Assembly: GCA_009602725.1 (NCBI GenBank)
Contig: WELB01000201.1
Location: 218,149 to 243,497 of the forward strand
From: Spirogloea muscicola
Taxonomy: Eukaryota; Streptophyta; Zygnematophyceae; Spirogloeales; Spirogloeaceae
Direction of reading: 5' to 3'
DNA: 25,349 bases
Part shown: one piece after another, positions 546 to 24,813 of the stretch
How positions within the stretch are numbered: the stretch's first letter is position 1
Layout: every line of letters starts with the position of its first letter
The notes under the pieces: generated by a model
What the model saw: the letters and a program-made list of their open reading frames with translations, nothing else
Told to the model about the DNA's origin: nothing
The model's database searches: none
Translations under genes and position numbers: made by a program

Positions 546-3500
546 GTGGCGCCGTCTGGTCTTGTCAGGCGACCACCGCACGCTGCGGCCGATCCTGCAG
601 CAGTGGAAAGCAGCTGGGAGCGCGACGGACCTCAATCGCATCCAGGTAACCAGACTTCCTGTGCAAGCTCCATCAATACCCTCAATTTCTCCAATCTTTG
701 ACCGATATGTATTTGCTTGCAGGTGCAGCAGATGTAGTCTGTCCTAGCCCTGTGCCTTTGCCAGCCCTATCGGCTCACTTTGGCCCAAGCTCAGGCAGCA
801 TAACGTGCAATTTCCTTTGGGCAGCTGACGTACGTATCGAGCGCGAGCGAGGGCTTCTTTGGCTTTGGCGAGCAGTTTTCGTACTTCGACATGAAGGGCC
901 GCCGCGTCCCCATCCTCGTCCAAGAGCAAGTCCGCTCATCTTGAGCACCTTGTTGGAGGTTCAGAAGTTGGTCTGGAATGTTGGTTGTTGTAAAGGCCAC
1001 TTGCAATCACATCGAAAGTTGAGCAATACTTCGAAGCTCCTCTTGGGCTTGTTAGCTCTGTTATTGCTAAATCTGCAAGAATGGATCCGTAGTAAGTTGG
1101 TTCACATCTGCATTGCATTTGTTGACGCAGGGCATTGGGAGGGGTGATCAGCCGGTGACATGGGCCGCGAACATCCTCTCTAAGAGGGGCGGCGGCTCCT
1201 GGCACACTACGTACGCCCCCGTGCCACAGGTGGAGCTATCGCATGACTGACTCCCTGAATGATTGAAAGCGTCCCTTGAAAGCTCGTGCTTGGCTTGATG
1301 TAGCAAAGTTTCAAGGTCCATCTGGCAATAGTCCAGTACAGCAGAGAAGGCTTGAGGACTAACCACAGTCTATCTTTGAGACGGCAGCGTTGCTGGTCAG
1401 GCTCTTGGGTTTGTTGAGTTGCTTGATTTGCTGACCAGTGGCAGGTTGGATACTGTCATGCAGTACATCACCTCTCATTTGAGATGCGTGTACCTGGACT
1501 GTTATGAGTACTGCTTGTTTGACTTCCGGCGGAAGGACTGCGTGCAGATCCAGGTCGGCTTTGCCCTCCCCTGTGATCCTGGACGTTTTTCTGCCTTTTC
1601 ATCTCCCACAGCTGGAGCCAGGAAGCAAGGCAGGCAGTTGTGATGACAACACCTTAATAGAAAGTATGCATCTGTAACCCAGAGCTTCACCACCTGTTTG
1701 AGAATTTGCAGATTCATGCTGGGCATCTGAGTGGGAGGATAGTACAAGGCGAAACGCCATTGGAGATCATTGAGCACTACACAGAATGCGTGGGGAGAAT
1801 GAGGGAGCTCCCAAGCTGGATAATCTCGGGAGCTGTTGTCGGCATGCAAGGCGGCACTGCCAAAGTGCTTGACGTATTCAGGCATCTGTTGAGTGATCGC
1901 ACACCTGTGGCTGCATTCTGGCTGCAGGTCACTGACAACCCCTTCTAGCTTGTCATCAGTGGGATGACTTAGGACCTAGCCCTTGATAGGTGTTCCTTGT
2001 TGATAGAGGCGTGTAATTGCATCTATTAGCCTTAGGCCCTTGCTGATCAGGTCTTATCATCTTGGTCTAGATTGTCTTCAGCTTGTGCATACTTGTTCGC
2101 TGAAACCCGTGTAGTCCCTGTCGGGTTCAGCTTCAATTTCTGAACGAGCTGCTTCTCTATGCAGGACTGGTGTGGCCAGCGGGACACCAGCATAGGGAAG
2201 CAGCTATGGTGGAACTGGGAGCTTGACCAAGAGCACTATCCCAACTGGTCGAAGCTTGTGCGATACTTAAGGTCCATGGATGTTCGAGTTCTGGCATACA
2301 TCAATCCCTATCTCGCCGAAGTGACTCAGAAGCTCAATAGGAGGAGGGATCTCTTCTCCGAAGCCTTGAGTAAGCTGTGAATGGATGTGCCAGCTTCATA
2401 TAGCTCAGCTTAGGATGCCAGCCTCATGTAGCTGAGTTATTTGGGTTTCCATCTTGCCACATGTACAATCAAATTGTCTTCTGTTGAGCTGTATCCTGCC
2501 ACAACTCAAACTCATATTGGTTCTCCGCCTCGTTTGCAGAGGAAAATCTGGTCGTCGCTGACAAGCAGGGCAGCACAATCATGATACAGAACACGAACTT
2601 CAGCGCAGCAATGATTGACCTGACCAACCCAGCAAGCAAGGCCTGGTACCACAAGCTCATCCAAGGCATGGTCAAGCTTGGGATCAGCGGCTGGATGGCT
2701 GACTTTTGCGAGGCGCTGCCCTTCGAAGCTGCTCTTTTCTCAGGTGAACGTCTCTTTGACTTACTTTCAGGTGGTGAAGTGTGGTTGTGGTTAGGCAGAC
2801 TGCATACTCCCTGCTCTTCAGTCACTGACATCCTGCATCAAGCTGCTGTTTGAGCCCAGGAGAGGATGCCAGGACAGCGCACAACCGTTATCCGGAGATG
2901 TGGGCAGAGCTCAACAGGCAAGTCGTGGAAGAGCTCGAGGCCGGTATCTCAGCTAGTGGTCAGGTGCGACAACAAGCATCAGAAGGAGATGGAGGGAGCT
3001 ACATCTCCAGTATGTTGTCAAATGACTTGTTCCAGAGGAGCCAGACTGAAGTAGAAGCAGCCAACCACTGCCACGAGTGCAATGACAGACCGCTGCCAAA
3101 GCTGGTGGAAGATGAAGTGAAACCACATAGTGTGAATGCTGATCCTACTATGGAGCAGATGGATGGGGACTTCGAGGACGTCGTAGATGTCCCACTGCTT
3201 GAGGACTATGGCAGGGATGTAGATATTGCTGAGTGGTTGGCAGCAGATGGGCACTGGATGAAGAAAGATTTTGTTCAGGAAAATCAGGACCCATGGGAAG
3301 TAGCTAGTGACGAGGATGACAGGTCTCAGGAACTTAGAGAGGAGGGCTTGGTGTTCTTCATGAGGTCAGGCTACCGGGGCAGCCCAAGGCACTGCACTTT
3401 GTTCTGGGCTGGGGACCAAGTAAGCTCCGTGCTGCTCCTGACCTGCAAGTCAAGCACTTGTCATTATGCCCGGGCACTGGCTCGAGATGGAATGATTGTG

Positions 3501-5045
3501 CCACTCATTGGAGGATAATCATCTGACAGGAGCTCTGGTGACCGGCCGTGGATATGGACGCGTCAGGTCTAGACCTTTTGCTAAGTGGTCCATGCTCTAG
3601 CAAGTTGCTCTATTCAGAGAGTGATTGTCAGGTCCATGACTTACTTGGCCCAGAACATATAACCTCGTGCGCAGATGGTAAGCTGGCAACGGCACGATGG
3701 TATCAAGAGTGCAGTCACTGCACTTCTCAGCAGTGGACTCTCTGGCTTTGCTTTCAACCACTCCGATATTGGAGGGTGAAGCCTATGCTCAACCACTTGA
3801 ATGCTTGTGGCATAACCAAGGGCTTAGCCTGTCAAATGTGCCGATTGAAGGTCACTGAGCTGCTCATTCACAGCATCACGCACTGCTTGCGAAGAGAGAG
3901 GTCCTATTACTTTCTTTCTGGCCTTAATTTTGACAGCTATGGTACCTTGGCTGTCAATATCTCTTACTAAAGATGTGGTTCTCTGCTGTGCTTGGTGGCC
4001 TGCTCAGCTATACAACAGTGCCGCACCCTATCATTAAGTACCAGAGGAGTCAAGACCTACTTTTCAGATGGATGGAGCTTAATGCCTTCACTGTCATTTT
4101 CCGGACTCACGAGGTATTTTGTCACTGCCAATCGTATCAGGAAGTCTCTGGAGCATAAGCTATGACCCTCTTTGACGACCAGCTTCTTTGGGCCAATGAC
4201 ATGCATTTACCTTCTGGCTAGTAAGGTCTAGGTTCTTCTTACATGATGACATCGTTTGAGAAGCATAGCAGTACTACCTGTGGGCCAACAGCTGCCAAAA
4301 GCTGATCCTAGTGATGTGTCTTGTGCAGGGAAATCAGCCCTCAGCTAACTCCCAATTTTATAGCAACAGTCTAACTTACTCTCACTTCAACCGCTGTGCG
4401 CGCTTGTACAAAGCCTGGGAGTTTTACCGAGTCCAACTCGTGAAGGTAGTAAAGCTGCACATCTGTATCCTTGTGGCTATGCATGTCACTGCTTGCTATA
4501 TGCTTTTCTGCAAGACCCTGATAGATACTTAGCAAAGTGCTAGTAAAATGTGACGAGCTTGGTGATTGAGACAACAGAGATAGCGCATGCTTACCTGGCT
4601 GGATCCCGGTCTCCTGACTGGTCTGTACAGCAAATTCAGTGGACGAAATAAGGGATAGACATCCAGTGTTCTGGTCTCTTTGCTGCAGGAAGGGGCGAGC
4701 AGAGGGCTGCCAGTGGTGCGCCACCTGTTCTTGCACTACCCCAAGGACACCAACGTGCGGCGCATCACGTACCAGCAATTCCTGGTCGGCTCTGAGCTAC
4801 TGGTTGCCCCCGTTCTGAACCCCCGCACTGTGCGGGTGCTCGTTTACTTCCCGCCAGGCGAGCAGTGGGAGCACGTGTGGACGGGTAAGGTGTACGGAGA
4901 CGTCACGTGGGTGGCAGGCCGTAGGATACGGGTGCCTGCACCACTGGGAGAGCCGGCTGTCTTCGTGAAGAAAATCTCGGTTGTTGGGCAGCGGTTTGTT
5001 GCCAACCTCCGGGAGGATGGCCTCCTCAAGCTCGCTGCAGCATGA
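546..5045 (+). CDS. plant-type GH31 alpha-glycosidase, YihQ/sulfoquinovosidase-like
   Basis: Exons: 546-645, 825-929, 1131-1229, 1464-1553, 1712-1927, 2165-2369, 2540-2743, 2860-3419, 3675-3775, 4008-4113, 4329-4445, 4689-5045; all junctions are GT/AG and in phase (753 codons including the stop). Diagnostic segments in order are FFGFGEQFSYFDMKG, EQGIGRGDQPVTWAA, VVGMQGGT, LQDWCGQRDTS then LWWNWELD, SGWMADFCEALP, AHNRYPEMW, LFWAGDQMVSWQ, NHSDIGGY, FRTHEGNQPSANSQFYS and PVVRHLFLHYP. In the family, the Asp of WMADF is the nucleophile and the Asp of HSDIGG the acid/base; both are present. E. coli YihQ releases sulfoquinovose from sulfolipid derivatives. Plant members are commonly labelled alpha-glucosidase YihQ, and their substrate is less certain. 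Oddities: a Cys follows the nucleophile motif where relatives have Gly (MADFG), Gln replaces the sulfonate-binding Arg, and about 130 acidic residues are inserted. The first listed exon and everything 5' of it are the least certain. No clear targeting peptide is visible in the window. Confidence 0.9.
2387..2440 (+). repeat. imperfect tandem repeat in a GH31 intron
   Basis: Two adjacent 25-nt units, 2387-2411 and 2416-2440, begin TGCCAGC(T/C)TCAT and match at about 19 of 25 positions. They lie in the intron 2370-2539, just after the donor. This is most likely a simple local duplication. Confidence 0.6.
2946..3344 (+). other. acidic insertion inside the GH31 catalytic domain
   Basis: This is part of the exon 2860-3419. 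It lies between the conserved block ending NRQVVEELEAG and the block starting GLVFFMRSG. E. coli YihQ and the plant relatives I recall have only a short linker here (about 10 to 20 residues). This gene encodes about 133 residues, some 34 of them Asp or Glu by my count and only about 10 Lys or Arg. No domain is recognised. The reading frame stays open with no stops and no internal intron is needed, so the segment is probably translated as a disordered surface loop. Confidence 0.75.
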
Positions 5046-11208: not shown

Positions 11209-11453
11209 NNNNNNNNNNNNNNNNNNNNNNNNNNNNNNNNNNNNNNNNNNNNNNNNNNNNNNNNNNNNNNNNNNNNNNNNNNNNNNNNNNNNNNNNNNNN
11301 NNNNNNNNNNNNNNNNNNNNNNNNNNNNNNNNNNNNNNNNNNNNNNNNNNNNNNNNNNNNNNNNNNNNNNNNNNNNNNNNNNNNNNNNNNNNNNNNNNNN
11401 NNNNNNNNNNNNNNNNNNNNNNNNNNNNNNNNNNNNNNNNNNNNNNNNNNNNN
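11209..11453. other. assembly gap (245 N)
   Basis: This run of undetermined bases directly adjoins the CT microsatellite, which is probably why assembly failed. The true length is unknown. Confidence 1.
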
Positions 11454-13056: not shown

Positions 13057-15838
13057 ATGGAAGATGCCACATCTGCGACAGGAGCGCAACTGCAAGTGCA
13101 AAGTGGCGAGACGTGGTGAGAGCCGACACGTTGCCACCGCTGTGTAGCCATCAGCTAACAATCTTATCAGCGCAGACTATCGAGGAACGACTATATCGCT
13201 GGCAACCTTGACAGCGAGGTGCTGGGTCACGGCTATGATGGACCATCTTAATTTATCAAATTACTTCATAGTAGCTGAAACCGTCTATGATAAACTACAT
13301 ACTGACTGCTTGCTTTGGCTACGCTGCATTTTCCAGCCTTCACTGCTTGCTGTACGTCATGCTGTGCCGCTGAATGCTTAGCCCGCTTATTGTCCTACAG
13401 TGCACAATCCCTCAGAGAAACTGGGAAGTCAGTACAACCAGACCTCCTCCCCGTGCAGCACAAGCACGAGAATGGTGAAGACTTGCTTGGGGATGTTGGT
13501 GTCGTGGAAGACTGCAAGATTTTTGTAGGAGGGCTCCCTTGGCAGGTAGTCATTTTTGGCTTCTGGGTCCTCTGCGCCTTCTCTTTTCCCCAAGCTTTCT
13601 TTTGACTTACATAGCTTCTGTGCCTAAGTGATGCCTCAGTCAGCACCTCCTCTTGCTGTGTTTGCTCGTGGCTGCCTGCATGCTTACTGGCTGTCAGACA
13701 ACCACTGAGGATTTGAGCCGTCACTTTGCAAAGTATGGGGAGATTACGGATGCAGGTAATCAGAAGTTGGCGTGGTGATTGCATGCTGTTGTTTATCATA
13801 TAGGTCTACATCCACGAGCTCCTGAATGTGCTGCTTTAAAGTGAGACATGCGGCCACTGCCTACTGAAAGGACTATACAGTAGTGCTTGCAGCTGCCCAT
13901 CAGTTGAGTTGTGGTCCCCACATGCATGTGTATGCAGTCGTAGTGAAAGATCGTGCAACTGGGCGATCTCGGGGATTCGGCTTCGTCACATTCCTTGAGC
14001 AGTATTCCAGTGACGAGGCCCTCCACCAACCCCAGATCATCCAGGGAAGGTAAGGAACAACTTGTCTTGCATAGGTCTCAGCTCTGACTTGTTCGTGCAA
14101 GCTTGCACGAACAAGTGCAAGCTTGCATGGATAGAAATCCTTCATTATCGACATATGTACAACTAATCCAAACCCACTGCCTGAGCAGTGCTCGGGCTCC
14201 CTGTGACAATGTCACAACCAACATCAATGTCCCCTTCACTCTAGACATACTGCCTAGCATAGCTCTTATTAATGCTTGCTGCCGCCCAACTATCATACTT
14301 GGCCACTGCCTGTGCAGGATGGTCGAAGTGAAACTCCCTGTCCCACGAGATGCTGCGCTTCGAATGCAGCAGGTGCAAGCTCTGGGCCCTAGAAGCTCTT
14401 GTAGACAGCGGCCTTTATGCACGCAATCCCTTGACGGCTCCATCCTCCTGCCTGATGAGTGTGACTTCTCAGAAACACTGTTCTTTATCATGTCACAAAC
14501 AGGCAAGAGCCATGCAACCGCCAAGACTAAGAAAGCTCTTCGTAGGAGGTCTTCCCAACCACATCGCAGAAGATGTTATTGTTCTACACTTTGCTCGCTT
14601 TGGTCGGGTAAACAGTCACTCATAACACACTTCAAGGTCATCAGCATTTGCATAATGTATGGATAACTGCGGCTCTGACAGAGACGACTGGATTCAGAAC
14701 ACGTTGTGGAGCAGCAACTCATCTGCATAAATGATCACCACATCTTATCGTCCAGGTCCTAGAAGCCCAGGTCCTACGAGATAGGGAGACCCAGAGATCA
14801 CGAGGCTTCGCTTTCATCACCTTTGAGACAGAGCAAGCTGCAGCAAGGGCCCTGCTTGCTGGAAGGTATGAACAGGAAAGGAGATGCGTTTCACAGCTCG
14901 CCATGCATCAACATTTGATTCCTTTGCAACATTCTGAACGACTAAGTGTAACCTTGTCCAGCGTGTCAGCATGCAGCTAGCTAGGTATGTCTTGGAGCTG
15001 GAATGACAGTCACGAAGTTGCTTCTCCCGCAGTGTACAGGAGATTGGGGGAAAGGGGGTGGAAGTCAAGAAAGCAGAGCCTCGGCGGAGTGTTTCACTAC
15101 CAAGGAGGCAGACTCCAGATCTCTCAGGGAAATTGTCTCCGGCACACAAACTTGCAGGTGATCACAAAGTTGACCTGATAGTGGAGATCTAAGTCCAAGA
15201 ACCTTCTGGTGAAGCCACAGTTGCAGGCACTCGGAAAGCATCACGTGCGACTTGCAAGGCTGATGCATATGAAAGAGCTTCAATTGACATCATGGTTGCA
15301 ATTTACTGCAGAAGTATATGGGCAGACCGTCAGCCCTCCTGGATACAGCATTCCTCAGCCTTATGTTGCAGGTCAACCTGGTCTTCATGCACCAGTGGAG
15401 ATCCAGGCCGGCTCGGAGCGCTGCTTGTCAGCCAACACTTTCCTGCAGGGAAGCTATGGCGTGCAAGTGGGCATGTATGACACGGGACAAGGCTTTGTGC
15501 CACTGGCTTATTGGCCGGCAGCTCCCATGATGCTGGGAAGTGGTTACACGCTGCCTCCAACAGGCAGCGGCCCATCACAGCTGCAGATGGGCTTCTACAA
15601 CCACGGGAAAGATGCCAGCCTAACAGGACCGTTGGATGTAAGTGGTACGTGGCAAGATGACAGGACTATCCATTTTGCAGACTTCCATACTATGGCAGAT
15701 GTCAACCCTGTTTTGCAGCTGCCAGCTTTTACAACGTCCTCGAGACAGCAGCCGCGGCCATCACAGGAGCAGCAACACCCGCGTGAGCTCCAGTCTGTCA
15801 AGGAAGCCGTGAGCAGTGCAGATCGCATCTCAACGTGA
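13057..15838 (+). CDS. two-RRM RNA-binding protein, plant hnRNP1/Musashi-like
   Basis: Exons: 13057-13115, 13401-13545, 13698-13755, 13938-14049, 14318-14372, 14503-14607, 14756-14865, 15033-15157, 15312-15838; 431 residues, all phases close. RRM1 (about residues 59-131) has RNP2 KIFVGGLPW and RNP1 RGFGFVTF. RRM2 (about 154-227) has RNP2 KLFVGGLPN and RNP1 RGFAFITF. Each RRM ends with the typical family phrases (VEVKLPVPRD and VEVKKAEPRR). The C-terminal 175 residues, mostly one exon, are rich in Gly, Tyr, Pro, Gln and Ser (QTVSPPGYSIPQPYVAGQPG), as in hnRNP tails that mediate protein contacts. The family binds pre-mRNA or mRNA in nucleus and cytoplasm; a specific target cannot be read from the sequence. 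The ATG at 13057 (MEDATSATG) was chosen because its exon joins in phase to exon 2. Further non-coding leader exons are likely upstream. Confidence 0.92.
14087..14116 (+). repeat. 30-nt perfect palindrome in an hnRNP intron
   Basis: The sequence reads the same on both strands from 14087 to 14116, with arms ACTTGTTCGTGCAAG and no spacer. It lies in the intron 14050-14317, 38 nt after the donor. Its central TGCAAGCTTGCA (14096-14107) is repeated immediately downstream at 14116-14127. Transcribed, it could fold into a hairpin of about 13 bp close to the 5' splice site. Confidence 0.95.
14752..14776 (+). promoter_or_regulatory. tandem 3' splice acceptors, hnRNP exon 7
   Basis: CCAGGTCCTA occurs twice, at 14752-14761 and 14767-14776, so CAG|GTCCTA acceptors stand 15 nt apart (exon starts 14756 or 14771). 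Both keep the frame. The upstream choice gives FGRVLEAQVLRDRE, which aligns with the family. The downstream one would drop VLEAQ from RRM2. Confidence 0.55.
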
Positions 15839-16773: not shown

Positions 16774-19700
16774 CTACTCCACAAGCTTTGCAACCCGGTG
16801 GGCCTCGTAGGAGTGTGCGACGTGCAGCGGCGTGTCCTTGGACACGGGCCGCTCGGGCGACCAGAGCTCCAGGTTGCAGTAGCCGCCACCCCAGTGCACC
16901 ATGCACGCCTCCACCTCCCTGACGTCGAACCTGCTCACAATGGCCGCACCCTCCGCATGGTCCACCAGCATCCATTCGCCTGCACGGCACTAAGTCTTGT
17001 TACTCGCTCATCGCATGCAGTTGTGCAGGTAAATCCAGCAACTGATGCAATGCCTGGATCTTGTAAGCAATCATTTGCACGTATACAAGTAGAGACAGTC
17101 AGAAGAGGGTACCATTGGGGCGGTCTGTGCCCTTGAGAACCGCCTCCCCAAACTCCGCCCGCAGCTCGTGGGTGCTGCCATCGATTGCCGTGAAGCGCAC
17201 GACCGCGTCTGCTGTGTGGGGCAGCTTGAAGGATGGGTGCGCACGCAGGCACACGGGCCTGCAAACCCGCGAAGCCAAACAGATGGAGCAGTCGACTCAG
17301 CCGTGAGTGTGTCTCTTAAGGTAATTGCTGAAGCCTGAGAGGTCATGGGGTAAGCCATAGCTGCAAATCACGGCAACTAGCCTGGAGGTCAGGGCGCCCA
17401 AGATCACGTAGACATGTTTTTAACAGGAGGTCCTGCGTCTTGGAAGTCATGATCAGACACAGAGCAGTAGTCTGCCCATAATGCCAAGCGGATCCGAGCT
17501 GCAGGCAGGGAAGGTCAGTCACCGAGAGAAGCCGCCCGCGCCGGCCCCAATGGCACGCGCCTCGATGCTTGACGAGATGCAGAGCCTGTGGAGGTTGTCT
17601 GACGGCACTTGGATGGTCCTCAGCAGCACCAGGCCCCCGCCAATGTCGCCCTCCATGGTCACGCTGCTGTCCACGCCCTTCGGCGTCGTCGTCCTCCTGC
17701 TTGGCAGCCCAGAGACAACAGCAGTATCTATCAAGCCAAGGCGGCAGAGAAAACCCAGCTGCAAGATGTACTGTTCCTGCTTGAGGATCACTCTGATGGA
17801 GTCTCTCTGCACGTTCCACTCCAGGAGCTTCAGTGGCTGATGCTAAGCCCCACACGACTACGCTGACTCCATTAGACCCATCAATGTCAAATGCCGAGGG
17901 CTGGCAACTCACTTGACGACCTCGTACGGCTCTGTGCAGCCGACTGCTCGGTACTCAGGCCCGCTGTACTCTTCGTAGCCCCCTTGCTCCAGCTTCGCCT
18001 CCAGCCATTCCCTCCCTGACACAAAAGTGCGCTACTTGCATGAGATGCTTTCCTTGATCTCGATCACACCTGTGAGTGCTCTCCTGTGCAAGCAGCATGT
18101 ACTGTACATTAGCTCGATAAATTGGAAGGTCCATGACTGGCTGATGTTTGGAAGCACCTGTTGGAGCGTGAATGAGCGAGATGATCCTGCCACCAATCCA
18201 GGGCGCCACCTTGGCCAGCCAGTCACCGGCGGCTAGCTCCACGAACGTCTTGAATTCTGGCTCCTGCTCAAGCTGCTCCTCCCTGCTCTCGTCGTCCTCC
18301 AAACCTCTGCCGTTCACTGAAGTTTGCACGAAGGTGGCATTCAGACATATTTCAGATCACACGGTGCTAACTACCATGACTAGAATACTAAATTATAGCA
18401 TAATAAAATTTTGGGAGCTTTCTCAGGCGCACCACTACCACAGAGAAGCTTAACCCACCAGCATGCTGAAGCATCTCCTTTGTGCTGGTCACCATCGTCT
18501 CAGTCTCTGTCCTGTTGGGCAACTTCATCACGAGAAGCTCGCCGTCCACCCCTTCAGCTTCTACCTGCAAAGATGACCACAAGCACGGAGGGTGCACCGC
18601 TTCCTGGTTAAGTTGCATAGAGCAGCAGCGAGATAATAGCAAATAGTGTTCATGAGTGGAGGCTCAGCACTAGACCCCTGCGATTGTAAACCCACAAGAT
18701 GTGCAAGAACATAACAATCTGCATGGCTTCTGGTCCTCAGAATGACAGGCCCTAGCAAAGCTGGACATCATCTAGAACCTCCACAACGGAAGGGCTAAAT
18801 CATCTTATCCTCGGCAAGTGGACAAAGTAGAGATAAATTTTCTCAATGCACCTGCGTGCATTCCCCAAGGAGAAGGCAAGCTCGAAGCGCTCTTCTGGGC
18901 CGCTGGAGTGAGCCCTCAATAGCTTTGACGGAGATGTGAAGCTGCCCGTCTTCCTCAGCGGCGCTGTAGGTGGTAAGCAGGTACTTGCCCTTTTGAAAAC
19001 CATAACCGTCACCACTGTCCTCAAAGAGCTGGCCCTCAGCCTTGCCTGAGAACAATGAGTGGTTTCAATGACGTATATCATGTGGTAGAAGGAAATGATT
19101 GGCGTGCACTAATCTGGTCCACCAGATTTCACTGCTTACTGATGCAAGTTGCTTTCCGCAACTTCGACCTTGATCATCAGCATATGAATGTACAGTGGCG
19201 CAGTCTGCACAAGCTGACAAGTATATTAGATATACACGTTGAAATCACAGGGTCATCACCTTGAGAGTCCAGTGCAATCAGAAGCGTAACTGGATCCTCG
19301 GGCGAGCACTCTGTGACGCTTTGGTGGGGTGGCCCAGTGGGGACAATGGAGCCCCCTCGCAAATACAGAAGTGGGAGGTCCTAAAAACAGGAAACACGCA
19401 ATAAGCAAGTGCACACTCAAAAGCACTGAACATATGAAGGCCAACTTGACCAACACCTGGGCACCCATGAAAAGTGCCATAACTATGGGCTGCAGCTTAG
19501 TACCGGGTGACTGTCGTCAAAGTGGAAGCGTTGCCATATGCCCGCAGGCAGCACCACAGAGCCTGGCTCAGCTGCTCGTCGTTTATCAGTGCTGAAAGAC
19601 ATAAGCAGATCATTAGGACCGAGCCATGTGGCTAGTGAGTCATGTGCATATACAAAGCATCGACCATGCTGCCACACAAGGTATTCCAGGTTGGCCGCAT

Positions 19701-22700
19701 GTACGCGAGGTCCGCCGTTGTAGTAACAGATTGGCTTTGATGAACCGTAACGAGTGGAAAGGTCACCTTGCTGCCACAAGGAGGTTGCCTAGGAGGAAAC
19801 AGTCCTCGATTTCCCTCAGTTTTGGATCCTGTGGGTCTGCATCATACATTGCCCAGGTTAATAGCTTTTACAGAAGGGCTACATATCCAGCACTGATGCC
19901 ACAGCACCCACTTTCACCAGGACCTCCACGCACTAGCTGACTTTTTGTGATACTGATCCTATGAGAGCACCTCAAGGCCTACTTATGTGGTAAAGACTTG
20001 GACTTCGAAATTTGTTGATAATAAACAGAGGGACAGCTGCAAATATCCTGAGTGGTAGACAGTAAAATACTTCAGCAGTGGGCTTTAGTCTGCCAATGCA
20101 CACCTGCAAAGAAGACTGGAGTCATCACAGGTACTCCTGTAGTGTGAGCCTTGTAAAAGAGGGTGTAGAAGTGTGGCAGCAGGCGGTATCTCCTCAGCAA
20201 GGCCGCCCGAGAAACATTCTCGCACTGGATGGCAACCACAGTAAGATGCATACTTTGTTGTAACTCAGGATAGCAATGTCAATATGCACCTGCTGTTCTG
20301 AACCTCAATGCTAAAGGACCACACAAGCTAAGAGCCAACAGTGGCAATCCACTATCAAAGTACCCTCTGAATAATATGACAAAGTCAAGTGGCATGCCCT
20401 GGCAAGACAGATATGAAGCCTCTTTCACATGTGTGCCTATGACTACTTGGTCATAGGTGCATTTGATGCAGTCATAAGTCTGGGCACAGCTGTGCCAGCA
20501 AAGACCATAATTATAATCAGCAGGCCAAGCAACCTTACCTCCTCTCCAAAGCACCAGGGCTCATGGTGCGCTGTGCCTTGCTCGGAGTGACCTCTGGAGA
20601 AAGGAAGCAATGCTCCAATGCCCATCCACCTGACATGCTAGAGCTGCGTGAGTAAGGCCTGAGCAAAGACCTCCTGCACATCACTGTCAACTGCCATAAA
20701 CACAAGCTTATACAGTTTGTGCAGTCCAGTATCTATACCTACTGCTGTCTCTGTGGAATCCCCTAGTCGAGTCTGACCTGGCAAACAGACGGGGCGTTGA
20801 GTCTCCTGCGAAGCCGCCAATGTCTGGCCCAGAAAAGGGTTGTCCACTGAGACCCTGTAGCACACCTCAGGCCACAGCTAAGTCGTTAGGAGCCTTGCAT
20901 ACCTGCTGTACCTTGCAGTGGTGCACGGGCAGTGGTACGAATAGGTGTCAAGTGGTGTCAAGTTTGACAAGTGAAGGACAGTAAATGGTGGAAAAAGTGC
21001 AAACATCTCTGCTCTGTAGTACTGTGTTTGTGTAATAGCAACGCTATCAGAAGAAGTGAAAGGAGTCAAGACTTAGAACAAGCTCTAGATACTGCTACTT
21101 ATTGTCCAAGCTCCAGGCTTTCGTCATTGGAAGTGAGGCTTAGAGGTAGGCAACTCAGACGATTGTCTGACAAATGCAACCTGCATGCTACATGGAGCAA
21201 TGCAAGTGCAAGTATCTCAGATACGTACAAGGTTGAGGCCCATGGCAATGGACATGTGCAGGTGCTCCCAAGAGGCGAGATTGTCGCCCGTCCATGTCGC
21301 AGCATACCGCTGGCTACCAATGTACGCCGCGCGGGTCAGCACAAAGGGGCGACGGTCGGGATCTGCCAGTCGCATGCCCTCAAAGGTGGACCGCGCCATC
21401 AGCATGCCATACACCTGCATATCGAGCACGAACACAGCAATGCAAGCCAGTGAGGAGTACCACCAGCTGCAGCTTAGCCTCAGGTTGCTTAGCACAGACC
21501 TTAGATCTGGAGCCTGAACCTTACAACCTGACACCTTAGAGTAAAACAGTCTGAACACATGACAGCATCTTTTGAACATGCGCCCATTGCTATCTTAACC
21601 TTTGCTGAGCTCACCTCACCTGGTACTTCGACAATCAGGACAACACAAAGCAATTAAGGTGCACGGTGATTAAGCATAGCTCAAGCTCACGTTATGATAG
21701 TGGGCGTGACTCTGCTTGCCACCAAGCTCCTCGTCCCCAAGGTGGACGTTGTTCTCGGGCATCGTCTTGGAGATCGTCTGGACAAGGACAAGCCGAGGGT
21801 CTTCAAGAGTGACCAGCGAGCAAGGTAGTAAATACGGTTTGTGAGACTGCAGGCCTCGCCACCCACCTTCCACCTCTCGTTCCAGACAGTGAAATTCATG
21901 TGCAGAATGCTGTGGGCCAGCCACTAACTCTGCTTGATTGCAGCGCTGCAATCAAATCAATAGTGGAAGTGGATAAGGGGAGCGCAGGCTGTAAATCAGG
22001 AGAGAGGACAAGGGCGTGCAGAATAGTGGTAACTCACGTTGAACACGGCTGGCTCGTTCATGTCGTTCCAGATGCCATCGACTCCCCTGGAGCTGAACTT
22101 GCAGATGAGATCGGCCCACCACTTTCTCACGCGCTCAGCCGTATAATCTGGGAAGACGCATGGGCCGGGCCAGACATTACCTGCACCATAATCATGAGAG
22201 ACACTTGCATAACCTGCTCAATCCCAACAAATCTTCTTGTAACCGGATCCTTTGAGTACTGATTTGACGGCAATGAGCGAAGGTTCAAGAATTAAGGGTG
22301 TTGGGGGGCGCAAGCATCTTCCCGTACAAGATCACGATTCAAAACAGTGAGCTTGACCTGATAACCCATCGTCTGCAGCACCTAATTTACCAGATATCGA
22401 TACTTATTTCTTCTCAGCAAAGGCAGTTAAGTCAGCCACTGCAGCGCTTACCCACAAAGGGCTGGCCATTGGCACGCTGCACCCAGACGTCCTGCTCGGT
22501 GCCCTGACGGAACACTGAGTAGCCCTCGTCGCGTGCAATCCCAGGGTCAATCATCCACACTGCCTTGAAGCCCTGCGTGTGCAGGTCCGCAGCCAGGCCC
22601 TCGGGGTCTGGGAACTTCTTCTGCAAATGCCAGGTCAAGCAGCCACTCCATCACACATGGTTCCAATCGTTTGTAGGTAGGGTAACGAATACCTCTATCA

Positions 22701-24813
22701 TAAGCTTTCTGACTTCCTATTATTGAATTGAAGCTGCAGGCAAGTAAGGACAGCGGCTCAGAAGCCTGAGCCTTGCCATTCATGGCAGGCTTGTGAGAAG
22801 CCATACCAGAAACGGTCTTTGGCACACACTACAATCAGACTTGGAGCAGCAAGACAGCCTTCATCTGGACCTAAGACCAGGGCGAGCATGGCTGCCAAGC
22901 AAGCTTGACTTGATCAAGATCAGCTGGCAAGACTGGAGGCTGGTCGCGCACGGGGTCGAAGGTGAAGCAGCGGAAGCCATCCATGTAGTCAATGTCCATC
23001 CAAATGACATCGCAAGGTATCTGCCGCTCACGGAACTCCCGCGCAACCTGCACCAGGGCACCTCAGCCTTATGGACAGTGACTGGCAAGTCTGCACTTCA
23101 CGCCCATACCTATTGTTGAAACGTGATCTGGAACCCAATAAGGAGGTAATGAAAGGGCTAACATTGCCCAGTAGCGTCAGACAATTGGCGTCCTCCCAGC
23201 AAGTCAGCAACCAGGGGCTCAGGAAAGCTAAGGCTCTCGCAGGATGCAGGTGTGCGCCACAGCCCGTACGATCAGGCCGACTCTTGCCTTGCCAGCTCTT
23301 GCCTTGTTCCGACAGACGTACGCACCTTGCGGACCTGCGAGTCTGGCTCATAGCTAAAGCGACACTGGTGGAACCCGAGCGACCACCGGGGGGGCATGAA
23401 CAGAGTCCCTGTGGGAAGCAAGGGCCGCGGCAGCCTGGCCATTGCTCAGGCGCTGCATCAAAGAGGCGTGCGCATCCCGGAGGACTCTAGACAAGGGGAT
23501 GCTGAGGAGGAAGGAGAGGGCGCGACCCGCGCTGCGCCTGGCGGGAGTACCTCTAGGACCCTGTCAGCACTCTCATAACTCCAGCGGCACTGGTGGTAAC
23601 CCAGCGTCCACTTGGCGGGCATGGGCATCTCACCTGCGTCGCAGCCGACCGCCCGAGCGCAAGGGCCAAACGACCGTAAGGTTCAGGATTTTCGAGTAAC
23701 CGCGGTTAAGAAGGTGCAGCCCTCTGAATCAGATTAACTATCTCAAGAGAGGGGTCAAGGGCAGCCAATATCGCTCATAATCCTTTGCATTGTCAGCTCA
23801 AGCAGCGATTTACTCGACTTGAGCCTCAGCGCGATGATACTGATGGGTTGGCTGCTCAGTGTGTACTCATACCTATGGCGTGCGAGAGGGAGGTCAGGAC
23901 GGCCTCGGGCGTTGAGAAGGGCCCGAATGTGATGACGGGGTATGCTCCTGGTGCGGTGAAGCGGATGACACCCTCCTTGCGCAGGTCCACCTGCCCGCGG
24001 CCGAAGAGGGGCAACCAGTGAGAGAGCGCCATTGGCGGTTGGGAAACGACGTGGGCAACGAAAGCTGAGTCGGAAGCAGCAGATGAAGCATCGTCGGCTC
24101 GGCTCAGCCATGACCGACCTCCACGCGCCGTGTCGTGTCTGCGAGCACGCCGAGCGCGGAGCCATCTGGTAGCACGGCGAGCACCCAGGGGTGCGACTGG
24201 TACAGGGACGACGTGCTGCGGCCGTAACCCCACGCGTCGGTGTTCCACCCGACGATCTGCGCAACAGCAGCAGCGTGCAGGGGAGGGTTTAGGAGCTCCG
24301 AGCTCTGGAATACTGCATGGCCGGCCCTGGCAACAACAAGCGAATCCAGCAAGCTGGATGAGAGTCGAGAGGAGGAGCAGGGCCTGACTCGCCGGCCGGT
24401 GCGCTCGAGCGAGCCGCCGGTCTCGCCAGTGCCGTAGAAGGACGTCCCTGCCGGGAGCTGCCAGGCGAGGTGCACCACTCCACTTGCAGTGTCAGCAAGC
24501 TCTCATGCGGCCTCTCATGGGGGTCACGGAGGCCTCCACTACAAGGCTGGCCACTGCGGCCAACAAGAGGTCAGCTGACCTTGATCGTGACGGCCTGCTG
24601 GCCATTCTCGAGGCGGCAGTGAGGCACGCTCGCCGCGCCGAGGTCGAGGCCAGGATCACCCGCCGCCAGGTCCGGCAGCTCTGCCTCCCTCTTGGCAGCC
24701 TCGGCAAAGGAGAGCGACGGGGCGGCCGACCGCCGGGCTGCCTCGCTCGCGTCCCACCGCCGGACGCCGGCCTCCAGGATTGGCACCGCGACCATCTTCT
24801 TCGGCGGCGACAT
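16774..24813 (-). CDS. HGL1: GH31 alpha-glucosidase, heteroglycan glucosidase 1 (HGL1)-like
   Basis: Exons: 24813-24580, 24457-24389, 24256-24119, 23990-23873, 5a 23633-23551 or 5b 23408-23326, 23047-22952, 22620-22452, 22180-22038, 21777-21691, 21414-21229, 20854-20778, 20629-20539, 20224-20104, 19836-19767, 19591-19504, 19380-19260, 19045-18852, 18564-18459, 18316-18158, 18015-17913, 17696-17523, 17258-17113, 16979-16774. All junctions are GT/AG in phase, giving 992 residues; Arabidopsis HGL1 (At3g23640) is about 990. Motifs in order: PAGTSFYGTGETGGSLERTG, NTDAWGYG, SLYQSHPWVLAVLP, VIWMDIDYMDGFRCFTFD, GIWNDMNEP (nucleophile Asp about 342), SQRYAATWTGDN (acid/base Asp about 423), SGPDIGGFAG, RGHSEQG, FEDSGDGYGF. 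The C-terminal 300 residues (VAPWIGGRIISL, GYEEYSG, SSIEARAIGAGAGGFSR, LELWSPERPVSKD) are the HGL1-type extension. It should hydrolyse alpha-glucosidic bonds of soluble heteroglycans linked to starch turnover; the compartment is undecided. Confidence 0.95.
23326..23408 (-). other. HGL1: alternative exon 5b of the HGL1-like gene
   Basis: CCCACAG|GG...CGCAAG|GTGCGT, 83 nt, entry phase 1 and exit phase 0. It encodes (G)TLFMPPRWSLGFHQCRFSY then EPDSQVRK. Its start (GTLFMPP) resembles plant HGL1 more than exon 5a does, but it has Phe where plant HGL1 has Trp in CRWSY. Splice sites look functional and there is no stop or indel. Confidence 0.85.
23551..23633 (-). other. HGL1: alternative exon 5a of the HGL1-like gene
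   Basis: GACGCAG|GT...CTAGAG|GTACTC, 83 nt, entry phase 1 and exit phase 0. It encodes (G)EMPMPAKWTLGYHQCRWSY then ESADRVLE. It keeps the CRWSY and RVLE parts typical of plant HGL1. Only 142 nt of intron separate it from 5b. Residues map to about 187-214, the first strand-helix unit of the catalytic barrel, just before VIWMDIDYMDGF. Confidence 0.88.

Follow-up and report, generated by a model that had tools for sequence, protein, structure and literature searches.

Tandem and putatively mutually exclusive exons encoding part of the catalytic barrel of a predicted GH31 alpha-glucosidase in Spirogloea muscicola

Exons 5a and 5b of a predicted GH31 alpha-glucosidase gene are tandem copies of one exon, which encodes part of the catalytic barrel, and we consider it most likely, with a probability of roughly 0.6, that the copies are used singly and yield two isozymes that differ in linkage or chain preference. 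The exon would have been duplicated in tandem and its two copies would now be spliced in one at a time, while transcripts with none or both would run into early stops and presumably be lost by nonsense-mediated decay. Sequence differences between the two proteins would be confined to 28 residues at the beginning of the barrel, where isoform a would carry W and isoform b F, and one locus would supply both isozymes, with splicing shifting their ratio.

The window, that is, the whole stretch of 25,349 nucleotides analyzed here, lies on contig C201 (C201:218149-243497), and the genome searched comprises 153 Mb in 471 contigs. The features under discussion, in window coordinates, are as follows.

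19260-24478, minus strand: GH31 gene, modelled part from E2 to E16; 559 residues when either 5a or 5b is included
23873-23990, minus strand: exon E4, constitutive, upstream of the pair; leaves in phase 1
23551-23633, minus strand: alternative exon 5a, 83 nt; peptide GEMPMPAKWTLGYHQCRWSYESADRVLE including the split first codon; 82 of 83 columns invariant among the three gene copies
23581-23583, minus strand: codon TGG (W) in 5a at the GH31 linkage-specificity site, placed by alignment
23409-23550, minus strand: intron separating 5a and 5b, 142 nt; first in conservation among the 15 introns measured (123 of 136 columns)
23326-23408, minus strand: alternative exon 5b, 83 nt; peptide GTLFMPPRWSLGFHQCRFSYEPDSQVRK including the split first codon; 82 of 83 columns invariant among the three gene copies
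23356-23358, minus strand: codon TTT (F) in 5b at the same GH31 site, placed by alignment
22952-23047, minus strand: exon E6, constitutive, downstream of the pair; enters in phase 0 and carries MDIDYMD

The predicted GH31 gene and its paired exons

Exons E2 to E16 were placed visually, with GT/AG borders at their joins; exon 1 and the 3' exons lie outside the model. In the junction region of exon 1 and E2 (window 24585-24470, minus strand), no AG stands at the modelled start of E2, and the two frames have no simple connection. Pfam domains PF01055 (barrel), PF13802 (N-terminal), and PF21365 (C-terminal) scored above their cut-offs with either exon, the GH31 barrel reaching 418.4 bits with 5a and 416.1 bits with 5b. 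D161, D271, R336, D352, and H410 are invariant between the gene product and PDB 5djw, its best match among solved structures, and the roles of catalytic nucleophile, acid/base, and substrate binding were assigned by motif and spacing from residues named in the text consulted of PMC9612090. We class the gene product as a predicted GH31 alpha-glucosidase. Among the sequences compared, its best matches were bacterial GH31 proteins, and the name HGL1 would fit the gene. We also assume a likeness of the gene product to the Arabidopsis HGL1 protein.

As the first-pass annotation had described them, exons 5a (23633-23551) and 5b (23408-23326) on the minus strand are both 83 nt long, have AG and GT borders, are entered in phase 1, and are left in phase 0, between an E4 that ends at 23873 and an E6 that starts at 23047. 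The identity given there was also reproduced: the exons match at 52 of 83 bases and in 13 of 27 full codons, or 14 of 28 residues when the split first codon is counted. Codon shuffles of 5b matched 5a at a mean of 23.7 bases and at most at 40 (n = 20,000). Differences between the two peptides fall on 14 of 28 residues, comprising the W/F aromatic and 13 others. Estimates of dN/dS between 5a and 5b were uninformative (NG86, dN 0.43 and dS 0.94, with a resampled ratio of 0.14 to 1.33 in 476 of 500 resamples; LWL85, 0.49 and 0.46).

Because the exons share both the 83-nt length and the phases, the frame is kept by exactly one of them. With 5a alone or 5b alone, the modelled reading frame ran through 559 residues with no stop; with neither exon, the first stop came after residue 121, and with both, after residue 225, in all three gene copies found in the genome. 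The earlier claim that both or neither would break the frame thus held in every copy, whereas a single exon left it open. Exclusive use of 5a or 5b in the cell is, in our judgement, likely. From the sequence we infer exclusive splicing in the cell, production of both proteins, and a change in substrate preference together with its direction; that direction, from one isoform to the other, is a guess.

The window contains other features as well. A second GH31 gene (window 2488-5045, plus strand) includes an open reading frame with a barrel match (2488-2853) and another with a GH31 C-terminal domain (4659-5042), and we take it to read like the YihQ/sulfoquinovosidase type. The open reading frame at window 14332-14622 (plus strand) has a weak RNA recognition motif, at 23 bits with a cut-off of 27, and at window 11210-11453, a stretch of N precedes a long CT repeat, marking an assembly gap at a simple repeat.

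Conservation of the pair and the question of splicing control

DNA searches identified two further gene copies, on contigs C63 and C33. Across the 308 bases that take in both exons, identity is 95% for either copy, and BLAST pieces across the wider region of these copies showed 83-89% identity. Searches of the organism's own genome with the 5a and 5b peptides returned three loci only, with both exons at each, and AG/GT borders, phases, and both exon frames were intact in all three. In a three-way alignment, 82 of 83 columns were invariant in 5a and the same number in 5b; the change in 5a exchanges S and T, and that in 5b is silent. The twelve introns away from the pair had 2062 of 2665 columns invariant (77%), and none of the 2476 windows of 83 columns within them reached 82, the best having 76. 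Taken together, 5a and 5b (164 of 166 columns invariant) exceeded the introns on either side of 5b (365 of 413; P = 1e-5), and synonymous change affected 1 of their 56 codons versus 80 of 531 in the other exons (P = 0.0035); at fourfold sites alone there was no significant difference (1 of 25 versus 46 of 279; P = 0.15).

Intron conservation was uneven along the gene. The intron after 5b, up to E6, had 242 of 277 columns invariant, while intron 4, before 5a, was among the least conserved (164 of 226), and the introns differed by substitutions and indels among the three copies. A run of 39 consecutive invariant columns in the intron before 5b (23453-23415, minus strand), which includes GGCCAGGCTGCCGCGGCC, may hold a splicing control element. 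As all three copies reside in one genome, exchange between copies may have raised their likeness; within this one-genome comparison, the pattern argues that both exons have been kept by selection.

GH31 matches on C8/C126/C2, on C201/C63/C33, and on other contigs come in groups of about three diverged copies, a sign that the genome may be triplicated. Triplication of the genome is known for Spirogloea muscicola. For one gene of this species, the three copies are all mentioned in the text consulted of PMC11096116. Two GH31 barrel matches of equal score, C33:168976-169200 and C33:320089-320313, lie 151 kb apart and reflect a recent duplication or an assembly effect. Rubisco small-subunit (rbcS) genes on four contigs, one reading GYYDGRYWTMWKLPMFGC, indicate a photosynthetic eukaryote; that reading and the ranking of solved small subunits suggest the streptophyte side. 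rbcL was not found in the assembly.

For many known tandem exons, control by rival RNA pairings has been proposed (PMC6071210, in the text consulted). Among intron 4, the 5a-5b intron, and the intron after 5b, complementary invariant segments were no better than ordinary (reached by 464, 249, and 422 of 500 shuffles), as were duplex energies for candidate intron pairings (203 of 1000 and 394 of 1000 shuffles). A 6-nt partner common to the introns upstream of both exons was weak (28 of 1000 shuffles). The 9-mer GGCCCTTGC, present upstream of both exons (2 of 1000 shuffles), was set aside as a control element, since it occurs five times in the window (at 2035, 11125, 14843, 23418, and 23659) where 0.44 occurrences are expected, and it thereby loses its force. 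An RNAalifold structure prediction was given no weight, and Rfam gave no match in the window at gathering scores and none in sequence set L001 up to an E value of 1. A short intron is unlikely to exclude one exon sterically: 142 nt separate 5a from 5b, and the other introns of the gene have 123 to 374 nt. Mixed U2/U12 sites were rejected, given that the donors of E4 (GTATGA), 5a (GTACTC), and 5b (GTGCGT) are unlike the established U12 donor motif used in the comparison. Wrong products would be removed by frame logic alone.

The W/F site and the fit of both exons to the family

Counted back from the first Asp of MDIDYMD, the W/F site is 28 residues away, and both units of mouse MGAM have Y at the aligned position. 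With the mouse MGAM stretch as the query, the site corresponds to position 299 (Y) in human NtMGAM and 327 (W) in NtSI, in agreement with the published numbering. As described in the text consulted of PMC9612090, Y299 of NtMGAM lies in subsite -1, W327 is considered central to NtSI's specificity for alpha-1,6 bonds, Trp in place of Y299 or of Y1251 of CtMGAM increases isomaltose hydrolysis, and W169Y switches the specificity of the Ruminococcus obeum enzyme, alpha-1,6 in the original form, to alpha-1,4. NtMGAM Y299, CtMGAM Y1251, NtSI W327, and R. obeum W169 are here treated as one site, for NtMGAM and NtSI by alignment and for R. obeum W169 by its numbering. Those alternatives are separate genes or mutants and concern W/Y, whereas here one gene offers W/F (PMC9612090, same text).

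Relatives were the best 80 of at least 586 confirmed bacterial loci, with 47-58% identity in the best segment, and were aligned with both isoforms and 5djw; the search patterns, PCDVIWM and DIDYMDG, exclude the W/F site. By alignment, the best 80 of at least 586 relatives carry Y in 39, F in 26, and W in 15 cases, counts in which F may be slightly favoured by the ranking of relatives on likeness to an F-bearing first sequence. This alignment of all 80 replaced a fixed text pattern that had reached 53 of the 80 loci (Y, 24; F, 21; W, 8). Neighbouring residues are nearly constant in the same set (Q130, 80/80; R132, 78/80; S134, 80/80; Y135, 80/80), with C131 in 67/80. On a quick tree of 81 rows, from which the exon-5 columns were left out, W/F/Y need at least 16 changes; shuffled letters gave a mean of 34.2 and were as low in 0 of 200 trials, so that the letters are clustered and yet repeatedly changed. 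The W/F/Y residue therefore switches again and again among the bacterial relatives, and two of these three residues are available within the one gene studied here. 5djw, which we take to be BT3299, has F at this site. An alpha-mannosidase role has been predicted for BT3299 from its regulon (PMC3878776, in the text consulted).

On the family columns, 5a scored 70.0 bits and 5b 72.2; the best 80 of at least 586 relatives ranged from 52.3 to 97.5 with a median of 87.3, and both exons fell under this median on a profile built from the same relatives. All 5000 shuffles of each exon scored below zero. Nine columns hold one residue in at least 95% of the relatives, and 5b keeps 9 of 9 and 5a 8 of 9, having A for P at 122; one residue in 5a and two in 5b were unseen in the 80 relatives. 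When the whole genome was scanned with the GH31 barrel model, 5a was matched in all three copies (E = 3.9e-4 to 6.6e-4) and 5b was not matched at 1e-3. No relatives of the gene were found among viral contigs with exon E10 as the query.

Neither exon looks like a relic, since both are conserved in three copies and fit the family similarly. The first-pass annotation's placing of tandem alternative exons in a GH31 barrel is supported by these same results, the three copies being diverged from one another. Its further suggestion, of isozymes with different substrate preference, now has firmer ground: the W/F site is the published W/Y linkage site and W, F, and Y all occur among the bacterial relatives, while the effect of W versus F is something we infer. 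That the exchange changes linkage preference is plausible, and we hold the odds to be about even.

Competing explanations, precedents, and meaning

Other explanations place the significance of the pair elsewhere. Both exons may be alternative and the W/F difference irrelevant to linkage, the forms then differing in stability, in regulation, or in nothing measurable. The 13 other residue differences would allow this, as would F in 26 of 80 bacterial relatives (best 80 of at least 586), which makes F compatible with the fold, and the mutants in print exchange W and Y at this site rather than W and F (PMC9612090, in the text consulted). We nonetheless regard it as unlikely, because the site is a published linkage determinant at which the aromatic varies amid near-invariant Q130, R132, S134, and Y135. 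The pair might instead tune the amount of enzyme, with transcripts of none or both exons being destroyed and the second exon kept for that purpose; early stops with none or both in 3 of 3 copies and the unusual conservation of the 5a-5b intron (123/136) agree with such a role. A decoy, however, need not keep a GH31 peptide, and 5a retains 8 of 9 and 5b 9 of 9 of the columns that are at least 95% constant, making this account very improbable. One exon could also be an unused relic whose conservation stems from recent exchange among the three gene copies, all of which lie within one genome; the introns from 5a to E6 are likewise raised (123/136 and 242/277, versus 2062/2665 elsewhere). Yet the exons still exceed the adjoining introns (164/166 versus 365/413), the introns carry substitutions and indels among the copies, and both frames and every splice border remain intact in 3 of 3 copies, so that we give a relic even less weight.

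The preferred reading, two isozymes from singly used exons, has partial precedents. Human CYP4F3 uses exon 4 or exon 3 to give CYP4F3A or CYP4F3B with altered substrate preference (PMC12380495, in the text consulted). As in the GH31 gene, one gene has alternative exons, and in CYP4F3 the swapped segment sets substrate preference; CYP4F3, however, is an animal cytochrome P450 with an experimentally shown effect, whereas the GH31 case is known from sequence alone. Volvox carteri cyn23 has two mutually exclusive 106-nt exons, with isoforms verified by RT-PCR (PMC4378016, in the text consulted). It resembles the pair here in having adjacent exons of equal length in a green alga, with cyn23 proteins of equal length, but it encodes a cyclophilin, and the text consulted describes no swap of an enzyme specificity residue. 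Dscam-type clusters (PMC6071210, in the text consulted) share tandem, similar, equal-length exons and raised intron conservation in the cluster; they use docking/selector pairing, whereas no such pairing was supported for the GH31 pair. HGL1, heteroglycan glucosidase 1 (At3g23640), has bacterial proteins as its nearest non-plant relatives (PMC3087550, in the text consulted). It is like the gene here in being a GH31 enzyme with bacterial nearest relatives (here at 47-58% identity in the best segment, for the best 80 of at least 586); the HGL1 group of that paper consists of embryophytes only, and the text consulted mentions no duplicated exon. Searches of openly licensed PMC papers brought up no earlier report of alternative exons in HGL1 or in a GH31 gene.

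Alternative-exon swaps in enzymes are already known; what is new is that the W/F difference falls on the GH31 linkage-specificity site. The pair is set apart from the CYP4F3 and cyn23 precedents by a swapped segment that includes the enzyme family's own specificity residue. Tentatively, and with somewhat less confidence than an even chance would warrant, we propose that splicing acts as a linkage switch: the choice of 5a or 5b would place W or F at the GH31 site, and one gene would thereby provide two enzymes for glucan turnover, one tolerating alpha-1,6 bonds and the other preferring alpha-1,4 bonds, in an alga that is probably near the land-plant root. The same linkage choice is made in mammals through separate enzyme units and in bacteria through point substitution.

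If the preferred reading is true, splicing would exchange the residue by which a whole enzyme family sets linkage specificity. The test would be sharp and cheap, since the two proteins match outside one 28-residue segment, and they would let W and F be compared in natural proteins at the position where W/Y mutants have been reported (PMC9612090, in the text consulted). The pair would also provide a handle on the role of HGL1-type enzymes and a well-conserved case, from the green lineage, of mutually exclusive coding exons.
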